Shown here: in pieces, positions 45,483 to 53,272 of the stretch
How the letters are laid out: each line of letters opens with the position of its first letter
How positions within the stretch are numbered: position 1 is the first letter of the stretch
Assembly: GCA_014879845.1 (NCBI GenBank)
Contig: JACSRI010000113.1
Span: 27,862-91,861 of the forward strand
DNA: 64,000 nucleotides
From: Opitutaceae bacterium
Lineage (GTDB): Bacteria; Verrucomicrobiota; Verrucomicrobiia; Opitutales; Opitutaceae
Direction: 5' to 3'
The notes under the pieces: generated by a model
Told to the model about the DNA's origin: nothing
The model's input: the letters and a program-made list of their open reading frames with translations, nothing else
Databases searched by the model: none
Translations under genes and position numbers: made by a program

Positions 45483-47204
45483 ATGTCCATGAACTCCACC
45501 GAACACGCCTTCACGTCCTGGGATGGCACGTCGCTCTTCTACCGCGCCTGGTTGCCGGCGCGCCCGACCACGCGCGCGCTGCTTCTCTTCCACCGCGGCC
45601 ACGAACACTCCGGCCGCTGGCAGGAAACTGTCGAGGCCCTCGCGCTCGAAGACACCGCGGTCTTCGCCTGGGAGGCGCGCGGGCACGGCCGATCGCCCGG
45701 CGAGCGCGGCTCGGCGGAGAACCTCGTGGCGGTGATCAAGGACGCCGACGCCTTCGCCCGCCACCTTGTCGCCGTCCACGGCATCCGCCTCGAGGATACG
45801 GTCGTGCTGGCCCACAGCGTCGGCGCGGTCGTGGCCGCAGCCTGGATCCACGACTTCGCGCCGCCCGTGCGCGGACTCGTGCTGGCCGTGCCGGCGTTTC
45901 GCGTGAAACTCTACGTGCCGTTCGCCGTGCCGCTCCTGCGCCTGAAGCAGAAACTGTTCGGGCCCGGCTATGTGAAGAGCTACGTGAAGGCGAAGATGCT
46001 CACGCACGATCCGGAGCAGGCCGCCGCCTACGCCGCCGACCCGATGATCTTCCGCCAGATCGCGGTGAACATCCTGCTCGACCTCTTCGATACCTCGACG
46101 CGCCTGCTCGCCGACGCCGGTGCCATCACCGTGCCCACGCTGATGCTCACGGCCGGCGCCGACTGGGTCGTGAAGCAATCCGCACAGCGCACGTTCTTCG
46201 AGCGGCTCTCCTCGCCGGTGAAGGAGATGGAGATATTTCCAGACATGTACCACGCCGTGTTTCACGAGAAGGGACGCGATGCGCTCGTCGCGCGCACCCG
46301 GCGGTTCATCCTCGAGCGCTTCGCCCAGCCGGTCGATCGCGCGGACCTGCTCGACGCCGATCAGCACGGGTACACGAAGAATGAATACGACCGCCTGCAG
46401 CGCCCGGGTTCGCCGCACTTTGCCATCACGCGTGCATCGATGAAGACGCTCGGCCGCATGAGCGCCGGCATCGCGCTCGGCTGGCGCAGCGGCTTCGACT
46501 CGGGCACCACGCTCGACTACATCTACGAGAACCGGGCGCGCGGCTTTACGCCGATCGGCCGCCTGATGGACCGCTCCTACCTCGACGCGATCGGCTGGCG
46601 CGGCATCCGCGTGCGACGCGCCAATCTCGAGCGCATGCTCCGCACGCTGATCGAGCAGACGCACGCCACGGGCCAGCCGGTGCGCATCCTCGACATCGCG
46701 ACCGGCGCCGGGCGCTACGTGCTCGAGACGCTCCATGCGCTCCGCCACATCCCGGCCACCGCGCTTCTGCGCGACTACAAGGAGGAAAACCTCGAGGCCG
46801 CACGCCGCACCGCGAAGGAGCTCGGCGTGCAGGACGTGACGTTCACCCGCGCCGACGCCTTCGATCCCGCGACCTACGAAAACCTCTCGCCGCGCCCGAC
46901 GATCGGCATCGTCTCGGGCCTGCACGAGTTGATCCCCGACAATGCGCGCGTGCGTCGCTCGCTCGAGGGGCTCGCCCGGGCCATCCCGCCCGGCGGCCAT
47001 CTCATCTACACCGGCCAGCCGTGGCATCCGCAGGTCGAGTTCATCGCGCGTGTGCTGCGCAACCGCGAGGGCCAGCCCTGGATCATGCGCCGTCGCACAC
47101 AGGCGGAGATGGACGAGCTCGTGCGCGCCGCCGGCTTCGACAAGATCGCGATGGATATCGATCCGTGGGGCATCTTCACGGTGTCGGTGGCGATCAGGAG
47201 GTAG
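45483..47204 (+). CDS. Bifunctional alpha/beta hydrolase / class I SAM-dependent methyltransferase (YnbC-like)
   Basis: N-terminal 'LLFHRGHEHSGRWQETVEAL...AWEARGHGRSPGERG...VVLAHSVGAVVAAAWIHDF'; C-terminal 'VRILDIATGAGRYVLETLHALRHIPATALLRDYKEENLEAARRTAKELG'. Confidence 0.9.
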   Translation: MSMNSTEHAFTSWDGTSLFYRAWLPARPTTRALLLFHRGHEHSGRWQETVEALALEDTAVFAWEARGHGRSPGERGSAENLVAVIKDADAFARHLVAVHGIRLEDTVVLAHSVGAVVAAAWIHDFAPPVRGLVLAVPAFRVKLYVPFAVPLLRLKQKLFGPGYVKSYVKAKMLTHDPEQAAAYAADPMIFRQIAVNILLDLFDTSTRLLADAGAITVPTLMLTAGADWVVKQSAQRTFFERLSSPVKEMEIFPDMYHAVFHEKGRDALVARTRRFILERFAQPVDRADLLDADQHGYTKNEYDRLQRPGSPHFAITRASMKTLGRMSAGIALGWRSGFDSGTTLDYIYENRARGFTPIGRLMDRSYLDAIGWRGIRVRRANLERMLRTLIEQTHATGQPVRILDIATGAGRYVLETLHALRHIPATALLRDYKEENLEAARRTAKELGVQDVTFTRADAFDPATYENLSPRPTIGIVSGLHELIPDNARVRRSLEGLARAIPPGGHLIYTGQPWHPQVEFIARVLRNREGQPWIMRRRTQAEMDELVRAAGFDKIAMDIDPWGIFTVSVAIRR

Positions 47205-47293
47205 GGACGCCCCGCCGACGCGTCCGCCAGCACCCCTCGCAAGCACGATGGTCCCCGGCGGGGACCTCGGCGAGGCCTCCCACCCAACACGCC

Positions 47294-48598
47294 ATGACCC
47301 GCACCCGCTTCATCCGCACCGCACTCACCTCCGCGGCACTCTCGGTCCTGTTTCTCGTTGTCTACAGCGGATGCAACATCCTCACCGGCTGGCGCAGCGA
47401 CGTCGGCACGATCGCGTTCGCCTGGGAACGATTCATTCCCTTCGTGCCGCTCATGATCGTGCCCTACATGTCGATCGATGCGTTCTTCGTGGTCGCACCG
47501 TTCCTGTGCGCGGGCGAGGACGAGCGCCAGCGCTTCGCGCGACGCATCACGATGGCGATCCTCGTGGCCGGGCTGTTCTTCCTCGTGTTTCCGCTGCGTT
47601 TCGCCTTCGAGCGGCCGGCCGCCGGCGGCGGGATGCTCGGCGCGGTCTTCGACTGGTTCCGCACCATGGACCAGCCGTTCAACCTCGCACCCTCGCTCCA
47701 TATCGCCCTGCGCACGATCCTCGCGGAGCACTATCACCGGCACACGCGCGGTATGCTGCGCGCGGCGTCGCACGTCTGGTTTTTCCTCATCGGACTCTCG
47801 ACGCTGCTCGTGTGGCAGCACCACCTCGCCGACGTCGCGACCGGTTTCATCCTCGGCGGCTTCTGCCTGTTTGCGTTTCCCGAGTCCGACGCACCGCGCA
47901 CGGTCGTCGCAAATCGCCGCATCGGTCTCATCTACGCGTGCGGCGCGTTCGTCGTGCTCGCGTTCGGCTGGCTGCTGCGGCCGTGGGGCGTGTTTGCGCT
48001 CTGGCCGGTGCTCAGCCTCGGCGTGATGGCGCTGGCGAATTTCCGCGCCGGCGCAGCGATCTTCCAGAAGCACGACGGCCGGCTGCCGTGGCGCACACGG
48101 CTTGCCCTCGCTCCCGTGCTCGCGGGGCAGTGGCTTTCGCTCCGTCACTACGCGCGGCAATGCCGGCCTTGGGATGCGGTGACGACCGGGGTGTGGCTGG
48201 GGCGCGTGCTGAATGAGCGCGAGGCCCGCGAGGCGATCGACCGCGGCGTCACCGCCGTGCTCGATCTCACGGGCGAGTTCAGCGAGTCGAACGTCTTCCT
48301 GCGCACGACGCGCTACCGCAACGTCCCCGTGCTCGACCTCACGGCGCCGACGCCGGCGCAGCTCCGCGCGACGACGGACTTCATCGCAGCCGAGTCGGCA
48401 CGCGGTGTGGTCTACGTCCACTGCAAGATCGGCTACTCGCGCAGCGCCGCCGCGGTGGGCGCGTGGCTGCTCGCCTCCGGTCGCGCACGCTCGGTCGAGG
48501 AGGTCGTCGCGCAGCTCGTGCACGCCCGGCCATCGATCGTGATCCGGCCCGAGGTGCGCCGGGCGCTGGCGGAATTCGCGACTGGAAATGCCGCGTGA
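47294..48598 (+). CDS. PAP2 phosphatase / dual-specificity protein phosphatase fusion (YnbD-like)
   Basis: 'FNLAPSLHIALRTIL...LSTLLVWQHHLADVATGFILG' (PAP2-like) and 'GVVYVHCKIGYSRSAAAVGAWLL' (HCxxGxxRS). Confidence 0.9.
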   Translation: MTRTRFIRTALTSAALSVLFLVVYSGCNILTGWRSDVGTIAFAWERFIPFVPLMIVPYMSIDAFFVVAPFLCAGEDERQRFARRITMAILVAGLFFLVFPLRFAFERPAAGGGMLGAVFDWFRTMDQPFNLAPSLHIALRTILAEHYHRHTRGMLRAASHVWFFLIGLSTLLVWQHHLADVATGFILGGFCLFAFPESDAPRTVVANRRIGLIYACGAFVVLAFGWLLRPWGVFALWPVLSLGVMALANFRAGAAIFQKHDGRLPWRTRLALAPVLAGQWLSLRHYARQCRPWDAVTTGVWLGRVLNEREAREAIDRGVTAVLDLTGEFSESNVFLRTTRYRNVPVLDLTAPTPAQLRATTDFIAAESARGVVYVHCKIGYSRSAAAVGAWLLASGRARSVEEVVAQLVHARPSIVIRPEVRRALAEFATGNAA

Positions 48599-48623
48599 TC
48601 GCGTGTCTTTTGGTCGCCCCCCC

Positions 48624-49343
48624 ATGGCCCTCGATCCCGCCCAACGCGAAACCATCCGCCAGGCCGCGCTCGCCGGCGTGCTGCGGCGCTGCCAGCTCTT
48701 CGAAGATCTGCCCGAACCCGACCTGATGGCCGTCGCCAGCGCCTGCACCGTGCGTGCGCTGGCCAAGGGCGAGTATCTCTTTCGCGAGGGCCAGCCGGCC
48801 GAGGGGTTTTATGTCATCCAGACCGGCGTGGTGAATGTCCACCGCATCACGCCTGATGGACGCGAGCAGGTCATTTGCTTCTTTCGGCCCTACGAGAGTT
48901 TCGCCGAGGCAACACTCGTGACGATCGACACGTATCCAGCGCATGCCGTCGCGACCGAACCCAGCCAGGTGATCGTCGTGCGGCGCCAGGAATTTCGCGA
49001 CCTCATCGCCCGCCGTCCCGAACTCGCGTTGCGCATGCTCAGCTCGATGAGCCAGCACCTGAAGCACCTCGTGCAGCTGCTGCAGAACCTCAAGGGCCGC
49101 CAGATCGAGGCTCGGCTCGCCGACTGGCTGCTCGAGCACGCGCCCGCCTGCCCGGCTCATGATCAGGAGGCCGTCCTCGAGCTGCCGGTGAGCAAGAAGG
49201 TGCTCGCCGGCCAGCTCGGCGTGACGAGCGAAACGCTCTCGCGCACGCTCGCGCGCTTCCGCGACGAGGGTTCGATCGTGGTCGACGGCAAACGCATCAC
49301 CCTGCGCGATCCCGCGCGCCTGCGCGCGTGGGTCGCCGGATAA
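48624..49343 (+). CDS. Crp/Fnr family transcriptional regulator
   Basis: cNMP-like domain 'ALAKGEYLFREGQPAEGFYVIQTGVVNVHRITPDGREQVICFF'; HTH 'KKVLAGQLGVTSETLSRTLARFRDEGSIVVDGKRITLRD' with FNR-type ExxSR recognition helix. Confidence 0.93.
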   Translation: MALDPAQRETIRQAALAGVLRRCQLFEDLPEPDLMAVASACTVRALAKGEYLFREGQPAEGFYVIQTGVVNVHRITPDGREQVICFFRPYESFAEATLVTIDTYPAHAVATEPSQVIVVRRQEFRDLIARRPELALRMLSSMSQHLKHLVQLLQNLKGRQIEARLADWLLEHAPACPAHDQEAVLELPVSKKVLAGQLGVTSETLSRTLARFRDEGSIVVDGKRITLRDPARLRAWVAG

Positions 49344-49377
49344 CCGATCACGACCGGGGACCGTGTCGCGTGGCCGC

Positions 49378-49683
49378 TCAGTGACAGCGGAAGTCCGCCA
49401 CGGGCGCGCCGAAACCGTCGACGGGGGAGCCGACCTTGCTCACGCGAATCGCGACCGCATCGTCGTCCACGAGCCCGGGAACGTGCTCCCAGCGGAAGCA
49501 CCCGGGAAACTGGCCGTCGAGGAACGCGCGCAGCGGCACGGGATCGTGGCCGTTGATGAGCACGAAGCTCGAGCCGACCGGCAGGTTGACGCAGCGGTCG
49601 ATCACGGCCGGGCGCTTGATGTCGCACGTGAGTTCACGCGCGTCGAAGATGTCCTCTGCGGACTGGGTGGATGTAGTGCTCAT
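49378..49683 (-). CDS. DUF2249 domain protein
   Basis: MSTTSTQSAEDIFDARELTCDIKRPAVIDRCVNLPVGSSFVLINGHDPVPLRAFLDGQFPGCFRWEHVPGLVDDDAVAIRVSKVG. Confidence 0.8.
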   Translation of the reverse strand: MSTTSTQSAEDIFDARELTCDIKRPAVIDRCVNLPVGSSFVLINGHDPVPLRAFLDGQFPGCFRWEHVPGLVDDDAVAIRVSKVGSPVDGFGAPVADFRCH

Positions 49684-49718
49684 AGGTGAGTGGTGAGAGA
49701 AGGAGTTGGCTCCGGCCG

Positions 49719-50042
49719 CTACATCATCCCCAGTGCCTCGCGGCCCTCGGGGGTGATGCGCTCGGGCGTCCACGGCGGATCGTAGGTGAAACGAACGTCG
49801 ACCGTCGTCACGCCGCGCACGCCGCCGGCCAGGCACTTCGCGCCCTCAGACAGGGTGTCGTGCATCGGGCAGCCGGCCGTGGTCGGGATCATCTCGACCA
49901 CGATCCCGCCATCGTCCGCGATATCGATCGCGCCGATCATGCCGAGGTCGACGACGTTGATGCCGACCTCCGGGTCGATCAGGTGATACAGCGCGGAGCG
50001 GATCTCGTCGCGCGACGGCGGCTGGGCAGTCGTGTCGTTCAT
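49719..50042 (-). CDS. MIP18/SufT-like metal-sulfur cluster assembly factor
   Basis: 'EIRSALYHLIDPEVGINVVDLGMIGAIDIADDGGIVVEMIPTTAGCPMHDTLSEGAKCL'. Confidence 0.88.
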   Translation of the reverse strand: MNDTTAQPPSRDEIRSALYHLIDPEVGINVVDLGMIGAIDIADDGGIVVEMIPTTAGCPMHDTLSEGAKCLAGGVRGVTTVDVRFTYDPPWTPERITPEGREALGMM

Positions 50043-51361
50043 GCGGATACGGACCTCGGGAGAGCTTTCGGCGCGCCGAGGGGCGCGAGCCGCGGGTGCA
50101 CGAGGTGCGGGATCAGACCGACACCCGTGATCGCCAGGCACACGGAACCGGCGAGGAAGGCGATCGCGCCCATGCGCAGAGCCACCGGCGACTCGATGGC
50201 CACGCCGAGGACGACGGCGAACAACCCGGCCACGAGCGCCACGAACTGGACGCGCAACACCGGCACCCGCACGAGGTCCGCCACGAGCGGCACGCGCGCG
50301 CGGCCGACATGGGGCGCATAGCGCCACTGCCACGCGAGGAAGGGGACGATGCGGCCCGCCATCCCGAGGATGCATGGTGTGAGCACACCGAATACGCCGA
50401 GGACAAAAACCGTGAGACCCGGCCGCACCGGCGCCCATGCGATCCAGCCGGCGGAATGGAGCACACCGACGAGTCCCGCCAGGGCCGCCGGCAGGAGCAT
50501 GGTCACCCCGGCGAAAAAACCCCGCAGCGGCCAGTCGAGTGCGCGCATCCGCCGGCGAACCAGCACGACCATCTCGACAAGGAACACCCCGATGCCCGCG
50601 ACGATGGCGACCGCGGCCAGCGCGACCACGCCGTCGAATCGTCCCAGCAGGCCCGGCACGGCCAGGACGAGCCCGGCGTTGAGCAGAATGATCGAGGCCC
50701 ACGCTCGCGCCGGCGTCTTCACCGCGCTGAGCAGGAACATCGGCACGAGCTTGAATGCGACCGAGACGAGCGTGCCCGTGAAAAAGCCCACCACGCCGCA
50801 GGTCATGTGCAGGTGCAGCACCGCCGTCGCATCGAGCCCCGGAAGATTCCCCGATCGCGCGAACGCGAGCAGCACACCCATCACGACCGTCGCGAGGAGC
50901 CAGAAGAGCGCGAGTTGCAGACCGACGTTGTCGGGCGTCCAGCGCGAGCGCCGGCTGGCCGTGACCGCGAGGTTGACCACGCCGATGACTGCGCCCGCGG
51001 CCAGGAGCGAGCCGGCGTGCGCAGCACCGGCAAACCGTTCGTGCACCATCGACCCGAGCAGCACTGGCAGCGCCGTCGCATGCATCGCGGCATGGACCCA
51101 GGCGAGGGCGCGGCTGAAGAGCGGTCCCTCGGAAATGACAGGGATCAGCTGATACGCCGCGCCAAAGACAAACGAGCCCATCCATCCCAGGATGGTGAGA
51201 TGCACCAGCGCGACCATCTCCCCGGCGCGCGCCGCACCGAGAAAGGTCGCCGGTCGCGCCGCCAGCCAGCCGAGCGCGACGCCGAACGACGCGAGCCCAA
51301 GCGCAAAGAAAACAAACGAGATCAGCGCCTGCGGGCGAAAACTGGCGGGGCTCCCACTCAT
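50039..51361 (-). CDS. Polytopic NnrS / cytochrome oxidase subunit I-like membrane protein
   Basis: About 12 TM helices with His-containing segments ('LVHLTILGWMGSFVFGAAYQLIPV', 'VLHLHMTCGVVGFFTGTLVSVAFKLVPMF'). Confidence 0.7.
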   Translation of the reverse strand: MSGSPASFRPQALISFVFFALGLASFGVALGWLAARPATFLGAARAGEMVALVHLTILGWMGSFVFGAAYQLIPVISEGPLFSRALAWVHAAMHATALPVLLGSMVHERFAGAAHAGSLLAAGAVIGVVNLAVTASRRSRWTPDNVGLQLALFWLLATVVMGVLLAFARSGNLPGLDATAVLHLHMTCGVVGFFTGTLVSVAFKLVPMFLLSAVKTPARAWASIILLNAGLVLAVPGLLGRFDGVVALAAVAIVAGIGVFLVEMVVLVRRRMRALDWPLRGFFAGVTMLLPAALAGLVGVLHSAGWIAWAPVRPGLTVFVLGVFGVLTPCILGMAGRIVPFLAWQWRYAPHVGRARVPLVADLVRVPVLRVQFVALVAGLFAVVLGVAIESPVALRMGAIAFLAGSVCLAITGVGLIPHLVHPRLAPLGAPKALPRSVSA

Positions 51362-51387
51362 GGCAGGATCGCCTTTGTTGAAGCGCA

Positions 51388-51558
51388 GCAGAGCGAGACA
51401 CAGAAGACGCAGAGGATGTACAGAGTCCACAGAGAGCCCTGCCGCTGGCCCGCGATTCTCCGCGTCACGCAAGCGGCAAAAGGAAGCTCTCTGGATGATT
51501 CTTCCGACAACATCACTCTGTGTATCTCCTCTGGAATCTCTGTGACCTCTGTGTTACC
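51388..51558. repeat. Inverted-repeat element rich in CACAGAG/CTCTGTG motifs, inserted in the DUF2249 cluster
   Basis: Left arm cagagcgagacacagaagacgcagaggatgtacagagtccacagaga and right arm tctgtgtatctcctctggaatctctgtgacctctgtgttacc are imperfect inverted repeats. Confidence 0.65.
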
Positions 51559-51583
51559 ATGGCTGTTCGGATCGGTCCCGGGC

Positions 51584-52060
51584 TTAGCCAGCCCGCTGGA
51601 TGATGGTTTCGTGCGAGCCGTCGGGCTGCTCCGCGGTCTCCGCGGCGTAGCCGCGCTCCTCGAGGATCTCAAGAAGATGGACAGGCCGGAAGCGCGTGAG
51701 CGCGACGATCGCGCCGCCCGCCGGCAGGGCGTCGAGCTCCTCGAGCACACGCATCATCGGCTGCGGCGGCTCGAGGCCGCGCAGGTCGAGCAGCACGGGA
51801 TCCGGACGCCGCGGCGCGCCCGGCGTGAAAGTGATCTCGAACACGCCGTCGTCGCGCCGACGGGTCGCGTGGGAGAAACCCATGTCGCCGAGTTTCGCAT
51901 ACAACGGGGCCGGCTCGAAGGGTGCGATCAGTCGCAGCGCCTGTCCCGGCGCGAGCGACCGGACCGCCTCGAGGATCGCGCCGAGCGGTCCCTGGCCGGA
52001 GGTGAGGAGCGGCCGCACGTCGATCTCGCGCACGTCGGTTCTGGAGTTTCGTTCACTCAT
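51584..52060 (-). CDS. Tandem DUF2249 domain protein
   Basis: 'REIDVRPLLTSGQGPLGAILEAVRSLAPGQALRLIAPFEPAPLYAKLGDMGFSHATRR...VLLDLRGLEPPQPMMRVLEELDALPAGGAIVALTRFRPVHLLEILEERGY': two related halves. Confidence 0.8.
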   Translation of the reverse strand: MSERNSRTDVREIDVRPLLTSGQGPLGAILEAVRSLAPGQALRLIAPFEPAPLYAKLGDMGFSHATRRRDDGVFEITFTPGAPRRPDPVLLDLRGLEPPQPMMRVLEELDALPAGGAIVALTRFRPVHLLEILEERGYAAETAEQPDGSHETIIQRAG

Positions 52061-52415
52061 CGCGGGTCGACGCGCCCTCCTTCACGAGCGTGAGCAGCAT
52101 CGAAAACGGCTCGTTCGCGCGCACGGCATGGCGCGTGCCCGGCGGCATGTGCAACACCTCGCCGGCGGCGATCTCCATGCGCGCGCCCGCGACGGTCCAT
52201 TCGGACTTGCCCGAGAGGACCTGGATGATCGCCCGCGAACTCGAGGCGTGCTCGGTGAGTTCCTGGCCCTCGGCGAACCCGAAGAGCGTCACGCGCAAGG
52301 CCGGCGTGTTCACGAGCGCACGGCTCACGATGCCCTGGGGCGAGAACTGCGTATTGCCCGCGAGCGAGATGACGCCCGCCGAGGCCGGATCGAAGAGGGA
52401 TGAGTTGGGTTTCAT
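52053..52415 (-). CDS. Cupin domain protein
   Basis: 'SRAIIQVLSGKSEWTVAGARMEIAAGEVLHMPPGTRHAVRANEPFSMLL'. Confidence 0.88.
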   Translation of the reverse strand: MKPNSSLFDPASAGVISLAGNTQFSPQGIVSRALVNTPALRVTLFGFAEGQELTEHASSSRAIIQVLSGKSEWTVAGARMEIAAGEVLHMPPGTRHAVRANEPFSMLLTLVKEGASTRDE

Positions 52416-53209
52416 GAAAGGGATGGTCCGGTGGTCACACACGCAAGGAGGCCGAGCACAGCCTCCATCCAGCCGATCCGCCGCGCCGGCCACGACGGCG
52501 CCCACGGCCCGAGCAGCCAGAGCGTGCGGACGAGAAACAGCGTCAACCACGCCGCAGGCACCCACGTGTCAAGCAGGCCGGCCGCGGCCAGCGCCGCCAC
52601 GAACAGACCCGCAGCCACGATCAACGGGAAGGCGACCGGCGTGGACTGGCCCTTGCGACGGCGCACATAGGCCCGCACGGTAAGGATGCTGGTCAGCGCG
52701 CGGGCCACGGCGAATCCACCGACCGCGAGCGCGCACGGGAGCACATCGTCGCCACCAGCGAGCACGACCATCGCCACGGCCCACGCCGCAAACGTCGTCG
52801 CTCCCGCGCACTCCGCCAGGACGGCGCGCGCTTCGCGCTGCCGGTCGAACCACAGAAAAACGGCCGCCGCGACCGCGGCCACGATCCCCGGCCCGAGCAG
52901 GCCCATTTCGGCTCCGCTCATCGCGAACGTCGCCGACGCCACGGAGAACAGGCCCAACACCACGAGGGCGCAGCCCGCCGTTTCGCGGCGTCCGTCATTG
53001 CCGGCCCCCTGCACGACCTGCCACGGACGCCGCATCAGGAACAACGCCACACCGGCTGCCCCGAGCGCAGTCCCGCGCCACGACGGCGCGGCGAGCATCG
53101 CAAGGACCAGCGGCTCTGCCACGAGCGCCCAGCTCCCGTGCTCCCGAGGCAGGAGCGCCGCGAGCCGGAGTCCGCGCCTGGGCGTCGGGGCCTGCAGGGG
53201 TGTGGACAT
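52412..53209 (-). CDS. YwiC-like integral membrane protein
   Basis: 'AALLPREHGSWALVAEPLVLAMLAAPSWRGTALGAAGVALFLMRRPWQ' (YwiC-like PREHGSW) and multiple TMs. Start probably 53209 or 53224; the ORF-track start at 53272 lies in the FNR box. Confidence 0.85.
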   Translation of the reverse strand: MSTPLQAPTPRRGLRLAALLPREHGSWALVAEPLVLAMLAAPSWRGTALGAAGVALFLMRRPWQVVQGAGNDGRRETAGCALVVLGLFSVASATFAMSGAEMGLLGPGIVAAVAAAVFLWFDRQREARAVLAECAGATTFAAWAVAMVVLAGGDDVLPCALAVGGFAVARALTSILTVRAYVRRRKGQSTPVAFPLIVAAGLFVAALAAAGLLDTWVPAAWLTLFLVRTLWLLGPWAPSWPARRIGWMEAVLGLLACVTTGPSLS

Positions 53210-53258
53210 ATCACTCAGGATCATGCCGCCATCCTCGCACAGGTTGGCCGCAAATGCC

Positions 53259-53272
53259 TTGATGCGCATCAA
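53259..53272. promoter_or_regulatory. FNR/DNR-type operator TTGATGCGCATCAA
   Basis: Exact match to consensus TTGAT-N4-ATCAA, ~35-50 bp upstream of the YwiC-like start; a Crp/Fnr-family gene is in the same locus. Confidence 0.75.

Follow-up and report, generated by a model that had tools for sequence, protein, structure and literature searches.

What does an FNR/DNR-type palindrome control at the head of a minus-strand gene cluster in an Opitutaceae genome, and which regulator would act through it? We analysed a 64,000-nt stretch of this genome (hereafter, the window), in which six minus-strand genes follow the box TTGATGCGCATCAA (positions 53259-53272, no strand assigned) and a Crp/Fnr gene lies at their far end. 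The cluster is most simply explained as an accessory operon that is activated by DNR and serves nitrite and nitric oxide (NO) metabolism, with the enzymes encoded elsewhere in the genome. We assign a probability of roughly 82% to the reading that the six genes form an operon activated through TTGATGCGCATCAA by a DNR-type Crp/Fnr protein, as part of an N-oxide regulon, with products that probably support nitrite and NO respiration.

Pfam searches matched the six genes, in order, to YwiC, Cupin_2, DUF2249 plus TusA, no family, FeS_assembly_P and DUF2249. The first encodes a YwiC-like membrane protein (52412-53224, minus strand as for all six, ATG at 53224; PF14256, E 2.9e-18), followed by a small cupin (52053-52415; Cupin_2, E 2e-10), a DUF2249 and TusA-like fusion (51584-52060; DUF2249, E 6.5e-34), a 440-amino-acid polytopic membrane protein (50039-51361), a SufT-like protein (49719-50042; FeS_assembly_P/DUF59, E 3.1e-14) and a single-domain DUF2249 protein (49378-49683; E 5.9e-12). 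These matches bear out the YwiC-like, cupin and SufT-like labels of the original prediction. Its DUF2249 label also stands, as both PF10006 matches exceed the gathering score of 29.5 (116 and 45.7 bits), with the amendment that the first of the two genes encodes a fusion to a TusA-like domain without the TusA cysteine. The catalytic Cys of the CPxP motif is absent from the aligned fusion members, which have PPQP, PPEP or PPGP, and is replaced by Pro in the window protein (GLEPPQP); sulfur transfer by that route is therefore unlikely, and we disfavour it. The gene junctions, in order, are -1, -5, +222, -4 and about +32 nt, so the cluster had been described roughly correctly as mostly overlapping (junctions -1, -5 and -4), apart from one 222-bp gap. 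This segment (51362-51583, minus strand) separates the DUF2249-TusA and membrane-protein genes and has imperfect inverted arms (CACAGAG/CTCTGTG), and copies of its left part, 84-86% identical, are present on contigs C256 and C237. It resembles a dispersed intergenic repeat that has inserted into the operon, and it could break the predicted cotranscription.

The 440-amino-acid protein had been labelled NnrS-like, which we reject. The NnrS profile PF05940 matched 0 of 16 family members at E<=1, and hhalign gave a probability of 2.5% for a relationship to the true NnrS proteins of relatives, which are themselves PF05940-positive. The protein instead appears weakly similar to heme-copper oxidases: a faint COX1 match was found in 3 of the 16 members (best E 3.5e-5), and H54, H94 and H185 are kept in the closer set of homologues. 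The AlphaFold model from the single sequence was poor (pLDDT 51).

The regulator gene (48588-49343, plus strand, starting at 48588 or 48624) does not face the box; it is convergent with the cluster and meets it at its 3' end. Its product combines a cNMP-binding-type sensor domain (PF00027, E 1.7e-24) with a Crp helix-turn-helix (PF13545, E 1.4e-18), and the recognition helix VTSETLSRTLARF carries the ExxSR pattern originally noted, with SETLSR aligning to PETFSR of DNR. The closest solved structure in the PDB is Pseudomonas aeruginosa DNR (3dkw, E 7e-31), and the N-terminal region has no FNR-type CxxC cysteine cluster. Judged from its sequence, the protein is of the DNR type rather than an O2-sensing FNR, and it is predicted to sense NO and to bind the box directly. 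Upstream of this gene, at 45483-48598, inspection by eye indicated a phosphatase-like open reading frame and a 573-amino-acid open reading frame in which a hydrolase is joined to a methyltransferase-like region.

The box itself is its own reverse complement, a perfect 14-nt palindrome at the position claimed upstream of the first gene. The composition of the window predicts 0.0025-0.007 exact TTGATN4ATCAA sites (about 0.006) in 64 kb, whereas one was observed. A genome-wide scan, which had been proposed as a check, returned three exact sites in 5.44 Mb (99% complete), compared with 0.2-0.6 expected. The second of these is centred 62 nt 5' of the nrfH ATG at the end of contig C257, and the third lies within a coding gene on contig C54. 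Sites with one mismatch are common (69), and only exact or composite motifs are therefore informative.

We compared the sequence 3' of the boxes in an alignment of 27 promoters, 3 from this genome and 24 from its order. The layout is fixed: the box, mostly GG, and then a -10 element starting 22 nt past the box. In this set, in which the relatives' promoters are not mutually independent and divergent sites were oriented by the module gene, 18 of the 27 promoters had TAnnnT at exactly the 22-nt offset (background ~0.7% per position), and the second base of the hexamer is A and the sixth T in 25 of 27. The window element, GAGGAT (53231-53236, minus strand), likewise has A and T at these positions, with G, not T, at position 1. 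It lies exactly 22 nt 3' of the box, and the ywiC ATG follows 6 nt further. In class II FNR/DNR promoters, the box is centred at -41.5 and the -10 element occupies -12 to -7. The 22-nt offset and GAGGAT place the window promoter in this class, with a predicted +1 that coincides exactly with the ywiC ATG at 53224. The nrfH box has no -10 element at 22 nt. No sigma-70-like promoters were found in the region, and Rfam gave no match at 48-54 kb.

Start codons lie 5-12 nt past the -10 element in most regulon promoters of relatives (loci L052-L065 and L109-L124; gene starts called by a simple script), so the predicted mRNAs would be leaderless or have a leader of only a few bases. This pattern suggests near-leaderless mRNAs in the regulon, with start codons at or just past the predicted transcription start. 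For other genes of the loci examined, outside the regulon, a general leaderless signal was only weak, and our literature search found no report of leaderless or near-leaderless mRNAs for Opitutus. More tentatively, and with the balance of our judgement somewhat against it as a whole, the DNR regulon of the order might consist of class II promoters whose transcripts start at or a few bases from the start codon, such that NO-responsive genes would be translated leaderless or near-leaderless, and the conserved set that they encode (the Cys-less DUF2249-TusA protein, the uncharacterized heme-copper-like membrane protein and SufT) might form a dedicated NO-handling or repair unit.

The composite motif TTGAYN4RTCAA-N21/22-KANNNT had six matches in the genome and none for a reversed control, and five of the six lie in the window operon or in an N-oxide gene cluster on contig C81. 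One match is in the window and another, overlapping open reading frames, is on C185; the remaining four are in the C81 cluster, where two of them are the same box read on both strands. The rule in the form TTGAYN4RTCAA-N22-KANNNT is usable for finding further regulon members. The C81 cluster encodes a second DNR-like regulator, an azurin, a DUF2249 protein, a paralogue of the 440-amino-acid membrane protein and a NirK-related copper protein.

As originally noted, the window contains no NO or nitrite reductase; nrfHA and an eNOR-type reductase are located outside it in the same genome. The nrfH gene (TIGR03153, E 9e-22) runs off the end of C257, and nrfA opens contig C276, the window's own contig, indicating that the two contigs are probably adjacent. 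On C34, a B-family heme-copper enzyme has Gln in place of the cross-linked Tyr, with GHQSQQ aligning to the GHPxxY site of ba3 oxidases. This substitution and an upstream cupredoxin subunit II are marks of eNOR (PMC8756737), and a COX2-like gene lies upstream of the enzyme on C34. The minus-strand series around it includes COX2-like, SCO1, globin and DUF2249 genes. Its first visible gene shares 48% identity with a gene in a relative that has a box promoter, and the position of its own promoter falls beyond the contig end. That COX1-like first gene (L048:6768-8168), whose homologue in a relative (L114:1825-3270) has an exact box promoter, precedes the eNOR-type genes and may encode a second NOR-associated subunit. 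The suggested check for nor, nir and nos genes turned up nrfHA and the eNOR-type reductase. Profile searches found no NosZ in this genome and no bona fide NirK, as the sole NirK match, in the C81 cluster, is below the cut-off and lacks the catalytic Asp.

To assess conservation, we searched 177 genomes of the order (this one counted), 21 of which encode the 440-amino-acid membrane protein. In the loci examined, its gene comes after a DUF2249 gene; a SufT-like gene is often next and a DNR-type gene nearby, and cupin and YwiC are present in some. Exact or one-mismatch boxes precede the cluster in most relatives' loci, and the strict promoter motif was found in 13 of 21 genomes with the cluster versus 20 of 156 without it (p 2.6e-6). 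In relatives, nirK, azurin, nosZ or nrfHA is repeatedly found close to the DNR/DUF2249/membrane-protein/SufT core. Genes for true NnrS, hemN, globin, SCO1 and UbiA also appear as neighbours or motif-bearing genes, the latter including DUF2249, azurin, nirK, hemN, globin, SCO1, UbiA and COX1/NOR-like genes. A set of uncharacterized genes (DUF2249-TusA, YwiC, cupin and the heme-copper-like membrane protein) is thereby placed in a defined, testable NO regulon of an understudied lineage.

The promoter could be real and yet be activated by the DNR paralogue on C81, or be shared by both regulators. We consider this rather unlikely but give it serious weight: the C81 regulator is a close homologue of the window regulator (280 bits), carries the same ETLSR helix and sits among further box promoters. 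A DNR-type gene adjoins the cluster in most relatives' loci, however, which favours the adjacent regulator. The signal might also be oxygen, with the box serving an FNR- or FixK-like hypoxia regulon, as both the box and ExxSR are common to FNR, FixK and DNR; we find this improbable, given that the regulator lacks the FNR cysteine cluster and structurally best matches DNR, that the genome has just two clear Crp/Fnr genes (the window regulator included) and that the targets are N-oxide genes.

A chance palindrome 5' of an unrelated, constitutive operon is very hard to reconcile with a box that is rare genome-wide, conserved and spaced from its -10 element and ATG identically to relatives' promoters, even if 69 one-mismatch sites exist and a coding gene contains one of the genome's three exact sites. 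The nitrosative or N-oxide module originally proposed to lie under an FNR/DNR-type box is thus strongly supported by the rarity of the box, the nrfH box, the -10 spacing and the synteny with denitrification genes in relatives; its induction by NO or hypoxia is predicted.

Under the DNR-activated operon reading, a DNR-type dimer, most simply of the protein encoded at the operon's 3' end, would occupy TTGATGCGCATCAA centred at -41.5 and recruit RNA polymerase at the weak -10 element GAGGAT, a class II promoter from which transcription would begin at the ywiC ATG or within a few bases of it. The regulon would comprise the six-gene operon, nrfHA and the C81 cluster with its azurin, copper protein and second regulator. 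The operon's products would probably support nitrite and NO respiration and limit NO damage. Contributors would be the SufT-like protein, in Fe-S assembly or repair, the DUF2249 proteins, which may partner heme-copper NO reductases or serve them as sensors, and the heme-copper-like membrane protein.

Systems of this kind have been described, but the literature searched contained no account of the version in this lineage. In denitrifying proteobacteria, the DNR regulon has an FNR-like activator and a TTGATN4ATCAA box, includes nnrS, hemN and hcp, and is linked to COG4309 (DUF2249), which is co-transcribed with norB and predicted to be under DNR, NsrR or NnrR (Rodionov et al. 2005, PMC1274295). 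The window shares the FNR-like regulator, box and DUF2249 with that regulon, whereas its operon starts with ywiC, adds a cupin, a SufT-like protein and an uncharacterized membrane protein, contains no nor or nir gene and has start codons at the predicted +1. In Thermus thermophilus, the DUF2249 genes drpA and drpB are likewise under a Dnr regulator, DnrT, in a nitrate-respiration context, with DrpA periplasmic and proposed to be a nitrate sensor; unlike in the window, no heme-copper-like or SufT partner is described in the accessible part of that report (PMC6282519). Haloferax mediterranei induces a DUF2249 protein and a truncated globin under denitrification, encoded next to nirK/nor, but with the promoter motif CGAAYATDKTYG and archaeal regulators (PMC11218638). 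Probably closer in lineage, Verruconatronum alginivorum (Opitutales) combines NrfAH, an eNOR-type reductase and NirK, the first two as in this genome, and the available portion of its account describes no regulator or accessory cluster (PMC13274419).

The NirK-fold copper protein of the C81 cluster (L050:2816-4747) scores below the NirK cut-off and is without the catalytic Asp present in a relative's NirK. With its homologues in loci L062, L063 and L064, it forms a group of proteins of ~630-640 amino acids that are extended at the N terminus, have a C-terminal cupredoxin domain, keep the copper-ligand motifs and have lost the NirK catalytic Asp. Their genes recur next to the DUF2249/membrane-protein cluster with the same promoter type. 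In one relative (G126), a locus (L057) contains six exact TTGATN4ATCAA sites in 19 kb, and its denitrification island combines nirK and a NOR-like gene with genes for an Rrf2 regulator, azurin and a cytochrome c.
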